Assembly: GCF_000021325.1 (NCBI RefSeq)
Contig: NC_011365.1
Span: 3,004,001-3,068,000 of the forward strand
Reading direction: 5' to 3'
DNA length: 64,000 bases
Source of the DNA: Gluconacetobacter diazotrophicus PA1 5
Lineage (GTDB): Bacteria > Pseudomonadota > Alphaproteobacteria > Acetobacterales > Acetobacteraceae
Shown here one piece after another: positions 1,838 to 10,433 of this stretch; the stretch's first letter is position 1; every line of letters begins with the position of its first letter. Below the pieces are notes generated by a model, which worked only from the letters and a program-made list of their open reading frames with translations, was not told where the DNA came from and made no database searches. The position numbers and the translations under genes were made by a program.

Positions 1838-1959
1838 TTAGAGACTGTTTCAAAAGTCTAATTCGGCCTAAAAACTCATTTCCATGACCACTCCCCTTGC
1901 CTTCCACGGCCCTCTCACGGGACACTGGACCCCATCATCTTCTCAGGGGCTACGAAGGC

Positions 1960-2400
1960 ATGGGAATTCCGAGCGACCCGCTCTTGGACATCATGAGGCG
2001 GTCCCTGATCAACCTCGATTTCATTGAAGCCAATTACCAAGACCACGGCCTCTACGAGGTTACCCAACTCGTTAATACCTTCTTGGGGGCTTTCATTCAT
2101 CCCTTCGAGAAATCAGCCAAAGGGAAGGAATTCATCAGCTATTTCAGAGCAAGGCCCCCACCTGTTCCCTTTGCCGCAAAAACAGCAGAGGATTTCAATT
2201 ATCTCGAATTCATCTATTTCGTGAGGCACGCATTGGCTCATGGCGACCTGCATTATAATGCAAACAAGATCAAACAGATCGAGTCAATTACGCTTTGGAA
2301 TAGCAAATACGGGGAAAAGGCTATCAGGATTACCCTCTCCATTCGCGATATGAGGGTTCTACTTCTTGATTTTAAAAATATACTTGAAAAAATGTTTTAA
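1960..2400 (+). CDS. HEPN-motif protein, putative RNase/toxin-like
   Basis: About 146 residues from the ATG at 1960; a TTG at 1897 would add 21 residues that look non-coding. Near residue 90 the protein reads FVRHALAHGD, the R-x4-H motif of HEPN domains, and the helical pattern around it fits a four-helix HEPN fold. HEPN proteins are often metal-independent RNases in toxin-antitoxin and defence systems; that role is inferred here. The gene is AT-rich compared with the chromosome. Its 3' end overlaps the convergent membrane-protein gene by 42 bp. Confidence 0.55.
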   Translation: MGIPSDPLLDIMRRSLINLDFIEANYQDHGLYEVTQLVNTFLGAFIHPFEKSAKGKEFISYFRARPPPVPFAAKTAEDFNYLEFIYFVRHALAHGDLHYNANKIKQIESITLWNSKYGEKAIRITLSIRDMRVLLLDFKNILEKMF

Positions 2401-3036
2401 TTTTGAAATTATATTTATTTCATTTCCAATTTTTATGTCAGATCTAAAGTCCTTAATTTTAAGGAATGGCATAAAGGCATCAGTAAGCCCCCCGCCAAGT
2501 TCAAGCAACAATTCGTCTCGCAGACGACAAATTTCGTGAAAGGCTTTAATCTGAGATTCACGAGCGCCCGTGGAGTGAGGGGCCATTGCTTTATTGTTTT
2601 CTATAAAACGGCCCAATGATAACATTTTATCTAGCCTCATCAATATAGAAGATAAATATCCATAAGTTTTGTTATCTAATATGAACTGCGCCTGTTTAGA
2701 GGCATAGGAAGCCTCATCAACAATACTATAATCTTCATTTTGGTTATAATCCGCAATGCAGACCTTCCTAATCGCACGCACATGAATTTCATAAATTGCA
2801 TACCTACGCTCAAAGAGGTCAGAAATAACCTTCTCTTTGGCAATTCGGCGCTGCCAATTAGCAATCCAAACAGTAATAGAGCCGATCGCAACGGAAACGA
2901 CAAAAGTGAGAAAATCAGACGGCTTTATCGTAACCAGATACCCAAAGATTGAATATACATCGGGTGGAAGTGAGATGTGATTCCAGTTCGCAAACAAATT
3001 AGCCTCTCCAATAGAAATCATAGGAGAATAACCCAA
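2359..3036 (-). CDS. Hypothetical membrane protein
   Basis: 225 residues. One clear transmembrane segment lies near residues 42-60 (FLTFVVSVAIGSITVWIANW) after a short N-terminal part; the rest is predicted to be charged, helical and cytoplasmic. No known domain is recognised. The gene is AT-rich and overlaps the 3' end of the convergent HEPN-motif gene, so the two may be a functional pair in which one partner sits at the membrane. That pairing is only inferred from position. Confidence 0.55.
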   Translation of the reverse strand: MGYSPMISIGEANLFANWNHISLPPDVYSIFGYLVTIKPSDFLTFVVSVAIGSITVWIANWQRRIAKEKVISDLFERRYAIYEIHVRAIRKVCIADYNQNEDYSIVDEASYASKQAQFILDNKTYGYLSSILMRLDKMLSLGRFIENNKAMAPHSTGARESQIKAFHEICRLRDELLLELGGGLTDAFMPFLKIKDFRSDIKIGNEINIISKLKHFFKYIFKIKK

Positions 3037-3330
3037 TTAAATCAAGAAGGGAAGAAATCTCCCTTCTTTCGAAAATGGGCAATTGGGAGGCTTCAAATGC
3101 CTACGTTATTAAAACTTCTGATTGAAGCGCGAACACAACCCGGTATGGAGTGTACCGAGGCTGTTGAGGGGAATGAACCCCAGACGACAACGGATGTGCC
3201 GGGGTTTGGGAATTCAAGAAAACCTGAAGAGAGGACAATAGAAGAGGGTGGGTGACACCTCAAAGGTAAAAATTGCCCCCACCTATAGTAATAAACTATC
3301 AAAACAGTAGATTGCAAAATAAGTTAAGTA

Positions 3331-3621: not shown

Positions 3622-3860
3622 ACTCTTGTTTTATTGTCAATGTTTTTCTGAAAATGACGCCACATTAAACCCAACTCTTCCCTATCCTCGGAACAGGACA
3701 AAGCCGCCGCAGCGCCATACGAAGAATTGCCAGTTCAATCATATGGCAGGACACATCTGCCCTTTCTTCATAATCCTTATCCAGCCTACGATAGTCACCC
3801 AGCCACGCAAATCCTCGTTCGACCAGCCAACGCTTTTGCGCCGGAATAAAGCCGTCCTTA

Positions 3861-5037
3861 TACCAACTCCGGTCGGCCCTGACTCATATGTGATTGCCTG
3901 ACGGTATCGTTCTGGAACGAGCTGTGATTCACAGGATGCCGAACCGGGCGGGAGGCATCCGAATGGGCGGGGCGTTAGCGTTGCGTGAGGATTATGATGC
4001 GGCGGGACTGCGTGCTCTGGCGCGGACAACGAGGCATGCGGGCCAGGCGCGTCGGCTTCTGGCGCTGGCGGCGATCTACGATGGTGCGTCACGCGGAGAC
4101 GCGGCACGACTGGCTGGGACGGATCGGCAGATTGTGCGGGACTGGGTGGTGCGTTTCAACGCCGAGGGCCCGGATGGCGTGCGGGATCATCATGGGGGCG
4201 GTGTCGTTCCCCGCCTGACACCAGCCATGTTGGAAGCGCTGATGCGCCGGATCGAGGACGGCCCGATCGCTGCCGTGCATGGGGTGGTGCGCTGGCGGCA
4301 GGCTGATCTGGGGCAATGGCTTTATGAGGAATTCGGCGTCTCTCTTTCGCGCAGCCGGCTGAGCGCCGTTATCCGGGGCCTCGACTTCCGCCTTCTGACG
4401 GGACGCCCCCGGCACCATGCCCAGGATCCCGAGGCCCAGGACGTTTTTAAAAAAGCTTCCCCGACGTCATGGCCGGGATCCGGGCCCGGCATCCCGGCAA
4501 GGCCATCGAACTCTGGTGGGGCGACGAGGCGAGGGTCGGCCAGAAAACGAAGCTGACGCGCCGCTGGGCCAGACGCGGCACCCGTCCACGCGCGCCTGCC
4601 GATCAGCGCACACGTTCGGCCTGGATCTTCGGAGCGATCTGTCCGGCGCTAGGCAAGGGAGCGGCCCTCGTCCTGCCCTGGTGCAACCTCCACGCCATGA
4701 ACCGGCATCTCGACGAGATCTCGCAGGCCGTAGCGCCGGGCGCTCACGCTATCCTCATCGTCGATCAGGCAGCGTGGCATACCAGCCCGAAACTCGATAT
4801 CCCCGCCAACATCACCATCCTGCCGCTCCCGCCACGCTCGCCCGAACTCAATCCGGTGGAAAACGTCTGGCAGTTCATGCGCAATACCTGGCTGTCGAAC
4901 CGGATCTTCCGCACCTACGACGACATCGTCGATATCTGCTGCCACGCCTGGAACCAGCTCGTCGACCAGCCCTGGCGCATCATGTCCCTCGGGCTACGAC
5001 AATGGGCACATGGGTTTTAACAAACAGGAGTTGGTAT
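3861..5037 (+). mobile_element. IS630-family insertion sequence, copy 1
   Basis: Inverted ends TACCAACTCC (3861) and GGAGTTGGTA (to 5036) enclose a two-frame transposase. The insertion point is a CTTAG site, leaving TA on both sides, as expected for IS630. It sits inside the IS5 transposase gene. A second nearly identical copy is at 8325-9501. Confidence 0.92.
3963..5020 (+). CDS. IS630-family transposase, two frames joined by -1 frameshift
   Basis: The first frame (from the ATG at 3963) encodes the HTH region (SRGDAARLAGTDRQIVRDWV). The second encodes the DDE domain: WWGDEA, ILIVDQAAWHT, and SPELNPVENVWQ with the catalytic Glu. The frames differ by -1 and meet at a slippery run AAAAAAG at 4449-4455. 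Programmed -1 frameshifting at A-runs is common in IS630 elements, so this is probably functional rather than broken. It differs from copy 2 at least at NPVENV versus NPVENA. Confidence 0.88.
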
Positions 5038-5878
5038 TAGGATTTGTATGATTTTCCCCAATTTCGACCTCTCCTCCCAGAAACTTTTTCACGTATTTGC
5101 TGAGTTTCTCTCCTCGATAGCCTTTGTCAGCAACGACTTTCTGCACCGCGCTAACCTCATGCTTCTTTTTCAGTTTGCGGATTAGCTTTTTGCCACCCTT
5201 CACATCGTGGGTATTAGCTGATGTCACCACGACACCCACGATATTGCCAGCACCATCCACGGCCAAGTGGCGCTTGCGACCCTTTACCTTCTTTCCTCCA
5301 TCAAAGCCCTTGGAAAGATTAGACATTTTGGCGGTCTTAACGCTCTGGCTGTCTATGGTGAGCAAAGACGGTTCATCAGAGCGGCCATCCATCAACCGCA
5401 ATTGACGATAGAAGTCATTGAAAGCCATACCGAATTTCCTGCATACTCCAAATGCACGGAAATAGCGGTAAACGGTGCCCCACGGCGGAAAATCGCGAGG
5501 TAACCCGCGCCACATGCAACCATTCTTCAGCATATAGAAAATAGCGTTCAGTATCTCCCTCATATCTGTACTGCGTGGCCTACCACCCCATTTGGCATCA
5601 AAGATATAGGGCTTGATCAGTTCCCACTGGTCATCAGTCAGATCAGTATCGTAGGATCGTCGCTGCATTATAATATTCCGAAATATTTTTACATATTATT
5701 GCCCCCTTCTTCTATGGAGTAGGAATGCCATGAGTAGATGGTGTTCTTCTTTCAATGTTCAATATTGGCGCAAAAAAACATTTAATGCTTCAGATTTCTG
5801 AGATTCATTATTACAATGAATCACTTATCGGGCGAAGCTTGTTGGAAATCTCATTTTCCCATATCCTACGGGTGGCGT

Positions 5879-6099
5879 GTCGTAGCGCCTTTTCACACGA
5901 GGTCGCCCCTATGTCGGGTGGCCTGCCTAATGCAACACCCGGCTTTCGAGCCAAGGCGGTGAATGGGGGCACTCATTCTTCGTCCAAGGGAAATAAGCAG
6001 GGCGTGCCTATACCTCGTGTGAACACGCTACGACCCGCCCGACGCCAGGGAGGCGTCGATGGGAAACTATGCCCGTCGTAGGGCAGAACACGAGGTGTC
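5879..6099 (+). ncRNA. omegaRNA/HEARO-like structured RNA without iscB
   Basis: A long base-paired stem closes the region: GTCGTAGCG (5879-5887) with CGCTACGAC (6026-6034), then TTCACACGAGGT (5892-5903) with ACCTCGTGTGAA (6012-6023). CGCCC (5904-5908) can pair with GGGCG (6000-6004) as a pseudoknot. Further hairpins are CGGGTG/CACCCG, GAATG/CATTC, GACGCC/GGCGTC (6041-6057) and TGCCC/GGGCA. The stretches ATGTCGGGTGG, CCTAATGCAAC and AGCAGGGCGTGCC match my memory of HEARO, the RNA guide of IscB nucleases. No iscB follows; instead a bPH/SHOCT gene starts directly at the 3' end. A short frame across this region (5755-6081) is taken as spurious. Confidence 0.6.
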
Positions 6100-6104
6100 G
6101 TTCA

Positions 6105-6818
6105 ATGAGGGGGCTGGGCAATATACTTTTATTCTGTTTGTATGGGATTTTAGCAATAACACTTTCTGTCCCTACTATCGGTCTGACTCTGTTATTTTTT
6201 ATAGCTAACTGCTGTTTTATCTTCTGGGGCGCGCCCAATAGACGCGAAACTTTGATCAAAAAGATCGAATCTAACCTCACCGCTGACGAAACACTTGTCG
6301 CTGAGGTCGTAGAACTGAGGCCATTTGCCCTGTTTCATCGCAGGTTTGGAATTGCCGTTACCAATAACCGCATCATGTCGCTTCAAAGAAAAATATTGGG
6401 CGGTTACAAGAAGATGGAAGAGTGGCAATGGAAATATATCTCAGAAGTTTCTATAGAAGAAAATAATTTCCCAAGCATATTGGGATCGAATTTGTTTTTC
6501 TCATTTACCGATTCTCCTAATCACGATCCCGGATTTGATATAATTGGAGTGGATTCACAGGTCGCGTCGAAGATTTACGCAGTGGCGAACGCACAGAAAC
6601 AGGATTGGACTGAGAAAAACCGAATCCGAATGATGGAAGAACATCGGGCCAAGTCCGGGGGTGTGAACATCCAAGGATTTCCTTCAGCCACTCCAATGCC
6701 GACAGTGAGCTTGATCGAACAGAAATTGAAGGAAGCCAAATCGCTTCTTGATAGCGGATTAATATCAAACTCCGAATACCAAGAAAGAAAATCAAAAATA
6801 CTTAGCGATCACATTTAG
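6105..6818 (+). CDS. Membrane protein with PH-like and SHOCT domains
   Basis: 237 residues from the ATG at 6105, which has a GAGG ribosome site provided by the end of the upstream structured RNA. Two transmembrane segments lie near residues 5-45. A beta-rich PH-like region follows (about residues 60-165: LVAEVVELRPFALFHRRFGIAVTNNRI). The C-terminal ~35 residues (KLKEAKSLLDSGLISNSEY) are a typical SHOCT motif, an oligomerisation helix pair. Its biochemical role is unknown. It lies 13 bp before the next gene and is probably co-transcribed with it. Confidence 0.7.
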   Translation: MRGLGNILLFCLYGILAITLSVPTIGLTLLFFIANCCFIFWGAPNRRETLIKKIESNLTADETLVAEVVELRPFALFHRRFGIAVTNNRIMSLQRKILGGYKKMEEWQWKYISEVSIEENNFPSILGSNLFFSFTDSPNHDPGFDIIGVDSQVASKIYAVANAQKQDWTEKNRIRMMEEHRAKSGGVNIQGFPSATPMPTVSLIEQKLKEAKSLLDSGLISNSEYQERKSKILSDHI

Positions 6819-6831
6819 AAAGAAGACGGGA

Positions 6832-8133: not shown

Positions 8134-8324
8134 TTTTTTGCCTTTCATGCAGGTTTCGGACACCTAGTGAAGAACGCTGTGCTGTGTCCGCAGCGTTCTT
8201 CACAGGGAAGTGGTTAGAAGCTGCCTGCTATAACCACTTCCCTTCCACCATAGACAATCTGACGCCTGAAATTCCACAACGAACTGAATTTTAGCGATGT
8301 GGAGACTTTTGAAACAGTCTCTTA

Positions 8325-9501
8325 TACCAACTCCGGTCGGCCCTGACTCATATGTGATTGCCTGACGGTATCGTTCTGGAACGAGCTGTGATTCACAGGA
8401 TGCCGAACCGGGCGGGAGGCATCCGAATGGGCGGGGCGTTAGCGTTGCGTGAGGATTATGATGCGGCGGGACTGCGTGCTCTGGCGCGGACAACGAGGCA
8501 TGCGGGCCAGGCGCGTCGGCTTCTGGCGCTGGCGGCGATCTACGATGGTGCGTCACGCGGAGACGCGGCACGACTGGCTGGGACGGATCGGCAGATTGTG
8601 CGGGACTGGGTGGTGCGTTTCAACGCCGAGGGCCCGGATGGCGTGCGGGATCATCATGGGGGCGGTGTCGTTCCCCGCCTGACACCAGCCATGTTGGAAG
8701 CGCTGATGCGCCGGATCGAGGACGGCCCGATCGCTGCCGTGCATGGGGTGGTGCGCTGGCGGCAGGCTGATCTGGGGCAATGGCTTTATGAGGAATTCGG
8801 CGTCTCTCTTTCGCGCAGCCGGCTGAGCGCCGTTATCCGGGGCCTCGACTTCCGCCTTCTGACGGGACGCCCCCGGCACCATGCCCAGGATCCCGAGGCC
8901 CAGGACGTTTTTAAAAAAGCTTCCCCGACGTCATGGCCGGGATCCGGGCCCGGCATCCCGGCAAGGCCATCGAACTCTGGTGGGGCGACGAGGCGAGGGT
9001 CGGCCAGAAAACGAAGCTGACGCGCCGCTGGGCCAGACGCGGCACCCGTCCACGCGCGCCTGCCGATCAGCGCACACGTTCGGCCTGGATCTTCGGAGCG
9101 ATCTGTCCGGCGCTAGGCAAGGGAGCGGCCCTCGTCCTGCCCTGGTGCAACCTCCACGCCATGAACCGGCATCTCGACGAGATCTCGCAGGCCGTAGCGC
9201 CGGGCGCTCACGCTATCCTCATCGTCGATCAGGCAGCGTGGCATACCAGCCCGAAACTCGATATCCCCGCCAACATCACCATCCTGCCGCTCCCGCCACG
9301 CTCGCCCGAACTCAATCCGGTGGAAAACGCCTGGCAGTTCATGCGCAATACCTGGCTGTCGAACCGGATCTTCCGCACCTACGACGACATCGTCGATATC
9401 TGCTGCCACGCCTGGAACCAGCTCGTCGACCAGCCCTGGCGCATCATGTCCCTCGGGCTACGACAATGGGCACATGGGTTTTAACAAACAGGAGTTGGTA
9501 T
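8325..9501 (+). mobile_element. IS630-family insertion sequence, copy 2
   Basis: Same inverted ends as copy 1 (TACCAACTCC at 8325; GGAGTTGGTA ending at 9500) and the same CTTAG-type target with TA on both sides. It inserted exactly between the right 19-bp repeat (ending 8321) and the next IS5 copy (starting 9504). Confidence 0.92.
8427..9484 (+). CDS. IS630-family transposase, two frames joined by -1 frameshift
   Basis: Virtually identical to the transposase at 3963-5020: HTH frame from the ATG at 8427, slippery AAAAAAG starting at 8913, and DDE frame ending at 9484 with WWGDEA, IVDQAAW and NPVENAWQ. The Val-to-Ala change next to the catalytic Glu is the one difference I noticed. The near identity of the two copies points to recent transposition. 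Confidence 0.88.
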
Positions 9502-9503
9502 TA

Positions 9504-10433
9504 GAGCCCGATCCGAAAGTTCTTCAACCGTGACAATGCCTTGCTGTCCGTCGTGTGAGCATTCGGATCGAGGCGATCAATGTCCATGCGGTTGAGGAAG
9601 CAATGGATTGTTCCCAGTCTTTGGCGAGCCGCCTGCACCGTCCCAGCCATGCGAATGTCCGTTCAACCACCCAGCGGCGCGGCAGGATCTGAAAGCCCTT
9701 CGCCGTATCGGACCGCCTGATGATTTCAAGGGTCCATTTTCCCATGGAGGCGAGCGCGGATCGCAATTTGTCGCCAGCATAGCCGCCATCAGCGAAGATG
9801 TGGCGCAGCCAGGGAAAGCGCCTGCGTATCGCTGCCAGGACATCAACAGCCCCATCACGGTCCTGGATGTCGGCGGCATGAACGAGGAGAAAGATCAGGA
9901 AGCCGCAGGTATCCGTCACAATATGGCGCTTGCGGCCCTTGACCTTCTTCCCCGCGTCATAGCCCGAAAGCCCGCCACTTTCCGTGGTTTTCACCGACTG
10001 GCTGTCAATCACGCCCGCGCTCGGAGAGGCTTCACGCCCCTCGATCTCGCGCAGGCTCATGACCAGCACCGTATTCATGACTTCGAACACTCCGGCACCA
10101 CGCCAGGCGTAAAAATAGCGCCTGACGGTCGAGACCGGCGGAAAGCATTTCGGCAGCAGGCGCCACGCACACCCGGCCGAGGCTATGTAGAGCATCGCGT
10201 TGACCACCTCGCGCATATCCGTAGTGCGGGGGCGACCGCCCCGTTTCGCCGGGGGTACAAATGGCATGATCAAAGCCCACTCCCCGTCCGTCATATCCGA
10301 TGGATATCGCAACCCTTCCCGGCTATGTTCACGTCGGGCAATACCAGTCCATGTCACCATTCACTCCATCTCTTCGCAAAGACGGATGAATCACAACAGG
10401 CTGGTATTGTTCAAAAACTTTCGGATCGGGCTC
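9504..10433 (-). mobile_element. IS5-family insertion sequence, complete
   Basis: Inverted repeats GAGCCCGATCCGAAAGTT (from 9504) and AACTTTCGGATCGGGCTC (to 10433) flank a single transposase. TA lies on both sides (9502-9503 and 10434-10435), within TTA on the left and TAA on the right. It is a different subgroup from the split IS5 copy at 3682-5668. Confidence 0.9.
9524..10360 (-). CDS. IS5-family transposase
   Basis: 278 residues, full length. The N-terminal DUF4096 region (DGEWALIMPFVPPAKRGGRP) is followed by the DDE domain: VIDSQSVKTTE, GKKVKGRKRHIVTD, HIFADGGYAGDK, and RRWVVERTFAWLGRCRRL with the catalytic Glu. All catalytic positions are present. An internal ATG at residue 23 is a possible alternative start. 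Confidence 0.92.
   Translation of the reverse strand: MVTWTGIARREHSREGLRYPSDMTDGEWALIMPFVPPAKRGGRPRTTDMREVVNAMLYIASAGCAWRLLPKCFPPVSTVRRYFYAWRGAGVFEVMNTVLVMSLREIEGREASPSAGVIDSQSVKTTESGGLSGYDAGKKVKGRKRHIVTDTCGFLIFLLVHAADIQDRDGAVDVLAAIRRRFPWLRHIFADGGYAGDKLRSALASMGKWTLEIIRRSDTAKGFQILPRRWVVERTFAWLGRCRRLAKDWEQSIASSTAWTLIASIRMLTRRTARHCHG

Follow-up and report, generated by a model that had tools for sequence, protein, structure and literature searches.

The 5' leader of a bPH/SHOCT gene in Gluconacetobacter diazotrophicus: a copy of a mobile RNA family and most likely a cis-acting translational switch

Introduction

A compact, strongly structured element directly upstream of a gene for a bPH/SHOCT protein (Table 1) raises the question of which kind of RNA is encoded here and whether it serves the gene that follows. 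The element lies at positions 5879-6099 of a 64,000-nucleotide stretch of the genome of Gluconacetobacter diazotrophicus PA1 5 (NC_011365.1), which is referred to as the window throughout. A first, sequence-only reading took it for an orphan omegaRNA/HEARO guide, a relic of an ISC element or a regulator of the downstream gene. HEARO RNAs are compact, comprise several helices and a pseudoknot and are found near mobile DNA, and the RNA of the window resembles the omegaRNAs of IscB in all of these respects. As described below, the window RNA is one copy of a large and almost unnamed bacterial RNA family located before many unrelated genes. As the 5' leader of the bPH/SHOCT gene, and as one copy of a mobile leader family, the element most likely acts in cis as a translational switch.

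Fold and covariation of the leader RNA

Over positions 5870-6100, the computed fold reaches -109.2 kcal/mol, compared with -88.4 ± 5.2 kcal/mol for shuffled sequences (z -3.98; 0 of 200 shuffles as stable), which bears out the complex RNA-like fold proposed from the letters alone. The proposed ends fit as well: P1 begins with base 5879, and the copy at the ribosome site runs to 6099. The long composite stem is recovered as P1 (9 bp) and P2 (11 bp), with compensatory changes keeping this stem in homologues. The pseudoknot has to be redrawn: the original CGCCC/GGGCG pairing occurs solely as a nested pair in the single-sequence fold, while evolutionary support is found for GUCGGGUGG/CCGCCCGAC, i.e., for pairing of 5913-5921 with 6035-6043.

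Table 1 Features of the leader RNA and the genes behind it (positions in the window)
Feature	Position	Strand	Remarks
Weak promoter candidate TTGTTG-17-TATCCT	5839-5867	+	would place the transcription start close to the RNA 5' end
P1, 5' strand GTCGTAGCG	5879-5887	+	9 bp with 6026-6034; covariation
P2, 5' strand TCACACGAGGT	5893-5903	+	11 bp with 6012-6022; covariation
Pseudoknot (PK), 5' strand GTCGGGTGG	5913-5921	+	partner 6035-6043; covariation
P3, 5' strand CCTGC	5922-5926	+	partner GCAGG 5997-6001; covariation
Conserved block, read as unpaired, TAATGCAACA (family form GAATACAACA)	5928-5937	+	
P4, small hairpin	5941-5952	+	76% of cells paired, with many gaps; weakest of the family's helices
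P5, variable hairpin	5957-5982	+	94% and 80% of cells paired (two alignments)
Conserved block, read as unpaired, GGAAATA	5989-5995	+	
Strand R (P2 3' strand plus P1 3' strand)	6012-6034	+	partner 5879-5903 or 6075-6095
Pseudoknot, 3' strand CCGCCCGAC	6035-6043	+	partner 5913-5921; covariation
Alternative hairpin CGACGCC/GGCGTCG	6040-6058	+	overlaps the pseudoknot and would break it
Second copy of P1 5' strand (GTCGTAGGGC)	6075-6084	+	
Second copy of P2 5' strand (ACACGAGGT)	6088-6099	+	includes presumed ribosome site GAGGT
Gene behind the leader, 237-aa protein with bPH_3 and SHOCT domains	6105-6818	+	profile matches
Second gene of the presumed operon, 342 aa	6832-7860	+	no Pfam or NCBIfam match

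Computation establishes the helices and the pseudoknot for the family as a whole. In an alignment of 108 rows, 91.6% of the cells pair (66.6% in shuffles), and compensatory changes are present in the homologous loci, 37 of 44 pairs having changed on both sides. Double-changed cells number 1061; shuffles have 327 ± 18, and slid controls reach no more than 186. The fraction of paired cells is 87.5% for P1, 94.7% for P2, 99.1% for the pseudoknot, 99.3% for P3, 76.1% for P4 and 80.4% for P5, the 94% given for P5 in Table 1 being derived from the other covariation alignment. Most of the 108 rows were collected with a pattern fixing most of the pseudoknot 5' strand; position 8 of this helix, which the pattern leaves free, is the best-covarying position (C-G 66, G-C 22, U-G 11, U-A 6, A-U 2). 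The same position, together with two others, also changes in an alignment of hits of the covariance model R1 introduced below. Hardly any variation is seen in two blocks read as unpaired, GAAUANAACA and GGNGAAUA, of which the first lies partly inside the search pattern. Among the alignments used, A4 includes one partial row, one 5'-cut row and some weak matches, and A3 includes one antisense row (L009 +). A competing local hairpin, CGGGTG/CACCCG, is 99% paired in Acetobacteraceae; it was dropped because distant members lose it, while compensation keeps the pseudoknot with the 3' strand. A self-cleaving ribozyme was likewise set aside, as the fold appears to have no recognised ribozyme topology.

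For an orphan omegaRNA/HEARO guide or an ISC-element relic speaks the combination of a multi-helix, pseudoknotted RNA with a region rich in transposase-like frames. Yet the Rfam scan at gathering thresholds returned only a tRNA and no RF02033 (HEARO) in the whole 64 kb, and even at E ≤ 10 this model matched neither in 5600-6400 nor anywhere in the whole genome. The search of the genome for iscB likewise gave nothing above cut-off: the only match to the IscB RRXRR profile PF14239 has 14 bits (cut-off 25) and is located 277 kb away at C1:3286599. Matches to TTC28-AS1 and sR3 in 5600-6400 at E ≤ 10, which are weaker than the match to sRNA-Xcc1 discussed below, are read as chance. The three sequence blocks that had been quoted as HEARO-like overlap the most conserved positions of the family. 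Compared between members, the 5' flank of the RNA varies, and it is enriched in promoter-like sites; sites of this kind at the 5' edge of homologues further argue against a guide. Hence, differing from HEARO in the lack of a model match and of a nuclease gene above cut-off and in being followed by an open reading frame (ORF) with its own ribosome site, the element is, within the reach of these models, exceedingly unlikely to be an omegaRNA guide or an ISC relic.

Size and spread of the family

At the DNA level, a second copy is present in the same genome (27-kb contig). Related genomes gave matches in 14 of 147 cases (13 besides the own genome), with some copies in tandem at a spacing of approximately 390-420 bp, and among plasmid records 11 matched, all from Komagataeibacter. 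Covariance model R1, built from 32 sequences, detected members in 42 of 397 genomes of Acetobacteraceae (own included) and in 24 of 385 genomes of Alphaproteobacteria, two of the latter being Acetobacteraceae with the own genome among them; the scores range from above 200 down to about 25 bits, the weakest matches being uncertain. A pattern scan of named genomes yielded at least 120 stretches. Among the 80 matches listed with titles, Gluconacetobacter, Acetobacter, Nitrospirillum and Niveispirillum are found, and the titles of metagenome-assembled genomes (MAGs) among the matches listed name Gammaproteobacteria, Binatota, Gemmatimonadota, Acidobacteriota and Chloroflexi; these phylum labels are taken from the titles, and as several MAG bins have sample prefixes in common, mis-binning is possible. 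A further model, R2, confirmed examples from each MAG group (L136, L141, L150, L159, L171, L174, L198). At least one further match, from Bacteroidales (L177), lacks a convincing pseudoknot partner and probably arose by chance; four rows at contig or locus ends (L166, L167, L170, L172) were not used. The motif also occurs in eight viral contigs, and all four of those given to R2 matched. Of 398 genomes drawn at phylum level, R2 detected the family in only three (the own, one other of the Acetobacteraceae and one further genome), and the family is therefore patchy. When 13 named loci of this larger branch were scanned with Rfam at gathering thresholds, no match to the leader was obtained, the only RNA-family matches being two tRNAs.

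In Gluconacetobacter, units of leader plus small ORF repeat every 390-420 bp (L011, L016, L026, L030), and several of the encoded small proteins have the pattern ..RCxExxxxDxxxFWxxVRN... Three small proteins from similar units (L002, L004, L013) gave no protein family above cut-off.

Relation to sRNA-Xcc1

As judged from the model alignments, sRNA-Xcc1 (RF02221) is the only named relative of the family and a partial homologue. RF02221 matches the window copy with 27.3 bits (E 0.02) in the scan of 5600-6400 at E ≤ 10 and with 31.8 bits (E 0.002) in the own genome, which is below its gathering cut-off of 53 bits. Read from the alignments, the 87 positions of this model cover the segment that begins with the 5' strand of the pseudoknot and ends with its 3' strand, and the outer stem of sRNA-Xcc1 equals the pseudoknot helix of the window family (GTCGGG..CCCGAC). 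A similar P3 and AATACAA / GGGGAATA blocks are shared, so that outer stem, P3 and the AATACAA and GGAATA blocks form a homologous core. In contrast to sRNA-Xcc1, the window copy has additional upstream strands (P1/P2) and a longer domain (approximately 175 versus 87 positions). Among 20 alphaproteobacterial loci, RF02221 matched five at E ≤ 0.1 with up to 48.8 bits, all below cut-off; conversely, at E < 0.05, a model of the larger family found 8 of the 30 sRNA-Xcc1 loci searched. In a phylum draw of 299 genomes, 50 contain RF02221, 35 of them above cut-off.

In most sRNA-Xcc1 loci seen, an ORF with a ribosome site follows, as in the window family, and a strand of the RNA is complementary to that site. 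Many sRNA-Xcc1 loci (such as L265, L278-L281 and L285-L290) also have an upstream terminator-like block (CCGCACCCGTCAG..GCGGTATTTTT) in common, 30-75 nt before the match, which is probably the end of the preceding unit.

This relationship brings in a second explanation, namely a trans-acting small RNA as proposed for sRNA-Xcc1, whose folded part would be released to pair with distant mRNAs while the gene behind is a mere neighbour. By the title of a 2011 paper, sRNA-Xcc1 is reportedly a trans-acting, integron-borne small RNA. In one study, sRNA-Xcc1 was detected in Xanthomonas as a discrete band of approximately 100 nt (88 nt by end mapping), which suits an independent small RNA or a processed leader (PMC2996969). 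In Xylella, seven homologues are described, five of them clustered approximately 385 bp apart, and transcripts are reported for all seven (PMC12189769); the leader arrays of Gluconacetobacter resemble these clusters. In the open-access literature searched, no paper on the leader RNA or on a cis mechanism for sRNA-Xcc1 was found. The position of the RNA relative to genes and its complementarity to ribosome sites, both treated below, weigh against release in trans.

Leader position, promoter and terminator

Across the family, the RNA occupies a leader position. With start codons chosen by rule and ORFs of at least 40 codons preceded by a Shine-Dalgarno (SD) sequence, 85 of 108 units have such an ORF at +10 to +80 nt after the pseudoknot. 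The corresponding counts are 23 of 108 for the opposite side and 410 of 1914 for places chosen at random; the 108 units stem from 127 rows, the others having been dropped for a weak pseudoknot partner, a short contig or duplication. In 34 of the 85 leader units, the distance from pseudoknot to ORF is 35-41 nt. The gene of the window, which follows just downstream in the same orientation, starts 61 nt past the pseudoknot, i.e., beyond this commonest distance; most of the 13 Acetobacteraceae-type units have 58-104 nt, and 61 nt is thus usual for that type. The start at 6105 was chosen by the ribosome site, the longest frame starting at 6069. That a gene with its own ribosome site follows in 85 of 108 units, in 34 of these at 35-41 nt, speaks against a mere neighbour.

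Promoter-like sites scoring at least 9 of 12 were found in 34 of 109 units (7% in shuffles), and in 48 of 109 units (10.6 expected) the end of the best site falls 25-40 nt ahead of the pseudoknot, approximately at the 5' edge of P1. The peak had been near the edge of the range in a first scan and was kept in a wider one; the former, as well as the hairpin and T-run scans, used 110 of 127 rows and the latter 109 of 127, with slightly different limits. The candidate of the window (Table 1) is absent from the list of a standard promoter scan of the window. Intrinsic termination was set aside, as no terminator-like site was found in 5700-6200 and runs of at least five T within 60 nt occur in only 3 of 110 units, both of which also speak against a trans-acting small RNA.

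Genes behind the leaders and mobility

The proteins encoded behind the leaders are mostly unrelated: the proteins scanned (102 of the 135 from units with SD-preceded ORF, plus that of the window) match 58 Pfam families, none of which is found in more than 4 of 103. Commonest are outer-membrane barrels and SNase (four each), followed by GT25, SHOCT and TbpB-like proteins (three each). By a crude rule, an export signal or lipobox is present in 63 of 103 proteins outside the Acetobacteraceae type, in 5 of 32 within it and in 34 of 276 control ORFs; outside that type, export signals are hence about five times commoner than in control ORFs. Many MAG leaders precede exported proteins or lipoprotein-like ORFs starting ..LAACGGGGG.. 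(L139, L145, L158, L175, L203, L249, L188, L201 and others).

Some downstream proteins match defence models, and sRNA-Xcc1 has been described ahead of the toxin gene symE in Xanthomonas integrons, within a cassette found in 13 species, a site said to suggest a divergent regulatory mechanism (PMC12444791). Both would suit an RNA partner of a toxin-antitoxin or Abi-like pair, with the RNA as antidote to the protein behind; given that the downstream proteins are mostly unrelated, such a role is highly improbable for the family.

Similar leaders are also found with different genes. Among pairs of similar leaders, 53 of 116 have unrelated ORFs, although the pairs are interdependent and some of the rule-chosen ORFs are short; for L153/L190 and L005/L018, the ORFs span 110-311 codons. 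When window positions 5670-6830 are compared with G008, only 5838-6096 is shared (95% identity), i.e., the part from promoter candidate to ribosome site. The shared part leaves out the bPH/SHOCT gene and the DNA immediately upstream, while sequence of 1896-3231 is conserved nearby. The occurrence of similar leaders with unrelated genes, together with the promoter-like sites at the 5' edge of the RNA and the frequently exported products, would also suit a constitutive mobile expression module, in which promoter and stable 5' structure ensure expression of any gene behind without switching. Such a module leaves the nearly invariant core blocks unexplained, as well as the complementarity of strand R to the ribosome site of each gene described in the next section, and we consider it improbable, somewhat more so than a trans-acting RNA.

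Two 1184-bp copies in the same orientation, 99.9% identical and with transposase frames which we take to be IS630-like, are located at 3857-5040 and 8321-9504 of the window. They flank the leader, its two genes and one further, presumably IS5-like transposase in a composite-transposon-like layout. In several Acetobacteraceae (L001, L005, L008, L010, L015), a transposase frame, again presumably IS5-like, points away from the RNA approximately 80-205 nt upstream of the leader; this transposase may help the module to move.

Complementarity to the ribosome site of the own gene

Strand R, located between P3 and the pseudoknot, shows complementarity to the ribosome site of the very gene that it precedes, and this complementarity is gene-specific, though not found in every member. 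A first test on the main family gave a modest signal (65 units, p 5e-4), and a second one, whose narrow regular expression missed many Acetobacteraceae units, gave p 5e-5 for 70 nonredundant units. In the set limited to units whose ORF follows an SD sequence (135 in total, 109 nonredundant), the duplex of R with the downstream site (R:D) has a mean energy of -20.5 kcal/mol in the 109 units, compared with -17.6 for swapped genes (p 8e-8) and -17.3 for shuffled sequences (p 7e-9). For the 13 Acetobacteraceae-type units, the values are -26.0 versus -21.2 (swapped, p 0.002) and -20.8 (shuffled, p 0.0009). The excess is greatest at -26 to -5 of the start codon (-3.35 ± 0.47, n = 106) and approximately zero inside the gene. 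The same positional excess is observed for sRNA-Xcc1 (-4.72 ± 0.87, n = 24; again approximately zero inside the gene) among 25 loci, L282, L283, L286, L287 and L293 having been left out. Here, mainly the apical loop is complementary: among 26 of 30 loci (two were without ORF and two not located), 15 reach a score of 18 or more, compared with 8.7% with swapped genes (p 2e-8). The signal is uneven, being clear in sRNA-Xcc1 loci and window-like leaders and absent or unclear in many others; several array-type units with proteins of 74-93 aa, for instance, lack a clear R:D duplex around the rule-chosen start codon. A complementarity that targets the RNA's own downstream ribosome site and weakens when genes are swapped speaks against a trans-acting small RNA, which we regard as unlikely.

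For the window, R (ACCTCGTGTGAACACGCTACGAC) can pair either with the 5' strands of P1/P2 or with GTCGTAG (6075-6081) plus ACACGAGG (6088-6095). The latter two segments, which surround the ribosome site, are copies of the two 5' strands of the main stem; a repeat as long as these copies occurred in 15 of 2000 shuffles. The window's R:D duplex has -30.4 kcal/mol compared with -16.4 ± 2.9, and none of 1000 shuffles was as stable. A similar imitation of the 5' strands by the ribosome site is found in the relatives L044, L122, L123, L015 and L237. Hairpins of at least five pairs overlapping the pseudoknot strand are present in 92% of the units, compared with 69% with shuffled downstream sequence. 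Pairing that covers the ribosome site and excludes the main fold is thus predicted, unevenly between members. The computed energies, -116.4 with P1/P2 and -109.0 with R:D (both without pseudoknot), suggest a near-balance of two folds, which falls short of demonstrating switching.

Proposed mechanism

Since both 5' strands of the main stem recur at the ribosome site, a single strand, R, can enter either the RNA fold or a pairing with this site. The R:D pairing, the ribosome-site copies and the hairpin overlapping the pseudoknot therefore suggest two exclusive states, and the leader RNA appears able to hide or expose the ribosome site of the next gene. This agrees with a role as regulator of the downstream gene, the one part of the sequence-only reading's functional proposals that gains support, from both the family-wide leader position and the gene-specific complementarity.

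For transcription start, switching, direction of regulation and trigger, we infer the following course. Transcription would start near the 5' end of P1. In the first state, the 5' strands would pair with R (P1 and P2), P3 would form and the pseudoknot would lock the fold, leaving the ribosome site free. In the second state, R would instead pair with the two copies around the ribosome site, the inner hairpin at 6040-6058 would take part of the pseudoknot strand, and the gene would be off. The conserved core would be the place where a ligand or protein tips the balance.

Such a switch resembles translational riboswitches and other site-sequestering leaders in having a conserved pseudoknotted core and an exchangeable strand able to cover the ribosome site. 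Many unrelated genes are found behind one leader type in c-di-GMP-I, as in the window family. The window leader and several relatives differ from translational riboswitches in having a ribosome site that mimics the 5' strands of the core stem. Leaders of this family also stand before different genes and, judging from MAG titles, are spread over several phyla, and the ligand is putative here.

Implications

Tentatively, and as a possibility that may well prove too broad, the family could represent a new multi-phylum class of mobile ligand-sensing riboswitch. Promoter, pseudoknotted sensor and the imitation at the ribosome site would move together as a single module, and newly acquired proteins, many of them exported, would thereby come to respond to a shared signal. 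sRNA-Xcc1 would then be a shortened branch of this class and not primarily a trans-acting small RNA. If true, this would offer a testable cis mechanism for sRNA-Xcc1 and would illustrate how an RNA element that accompanies genes from species to species, its ribosome site copying strands of its own stem, can place newly acquired genes under shared control at once.
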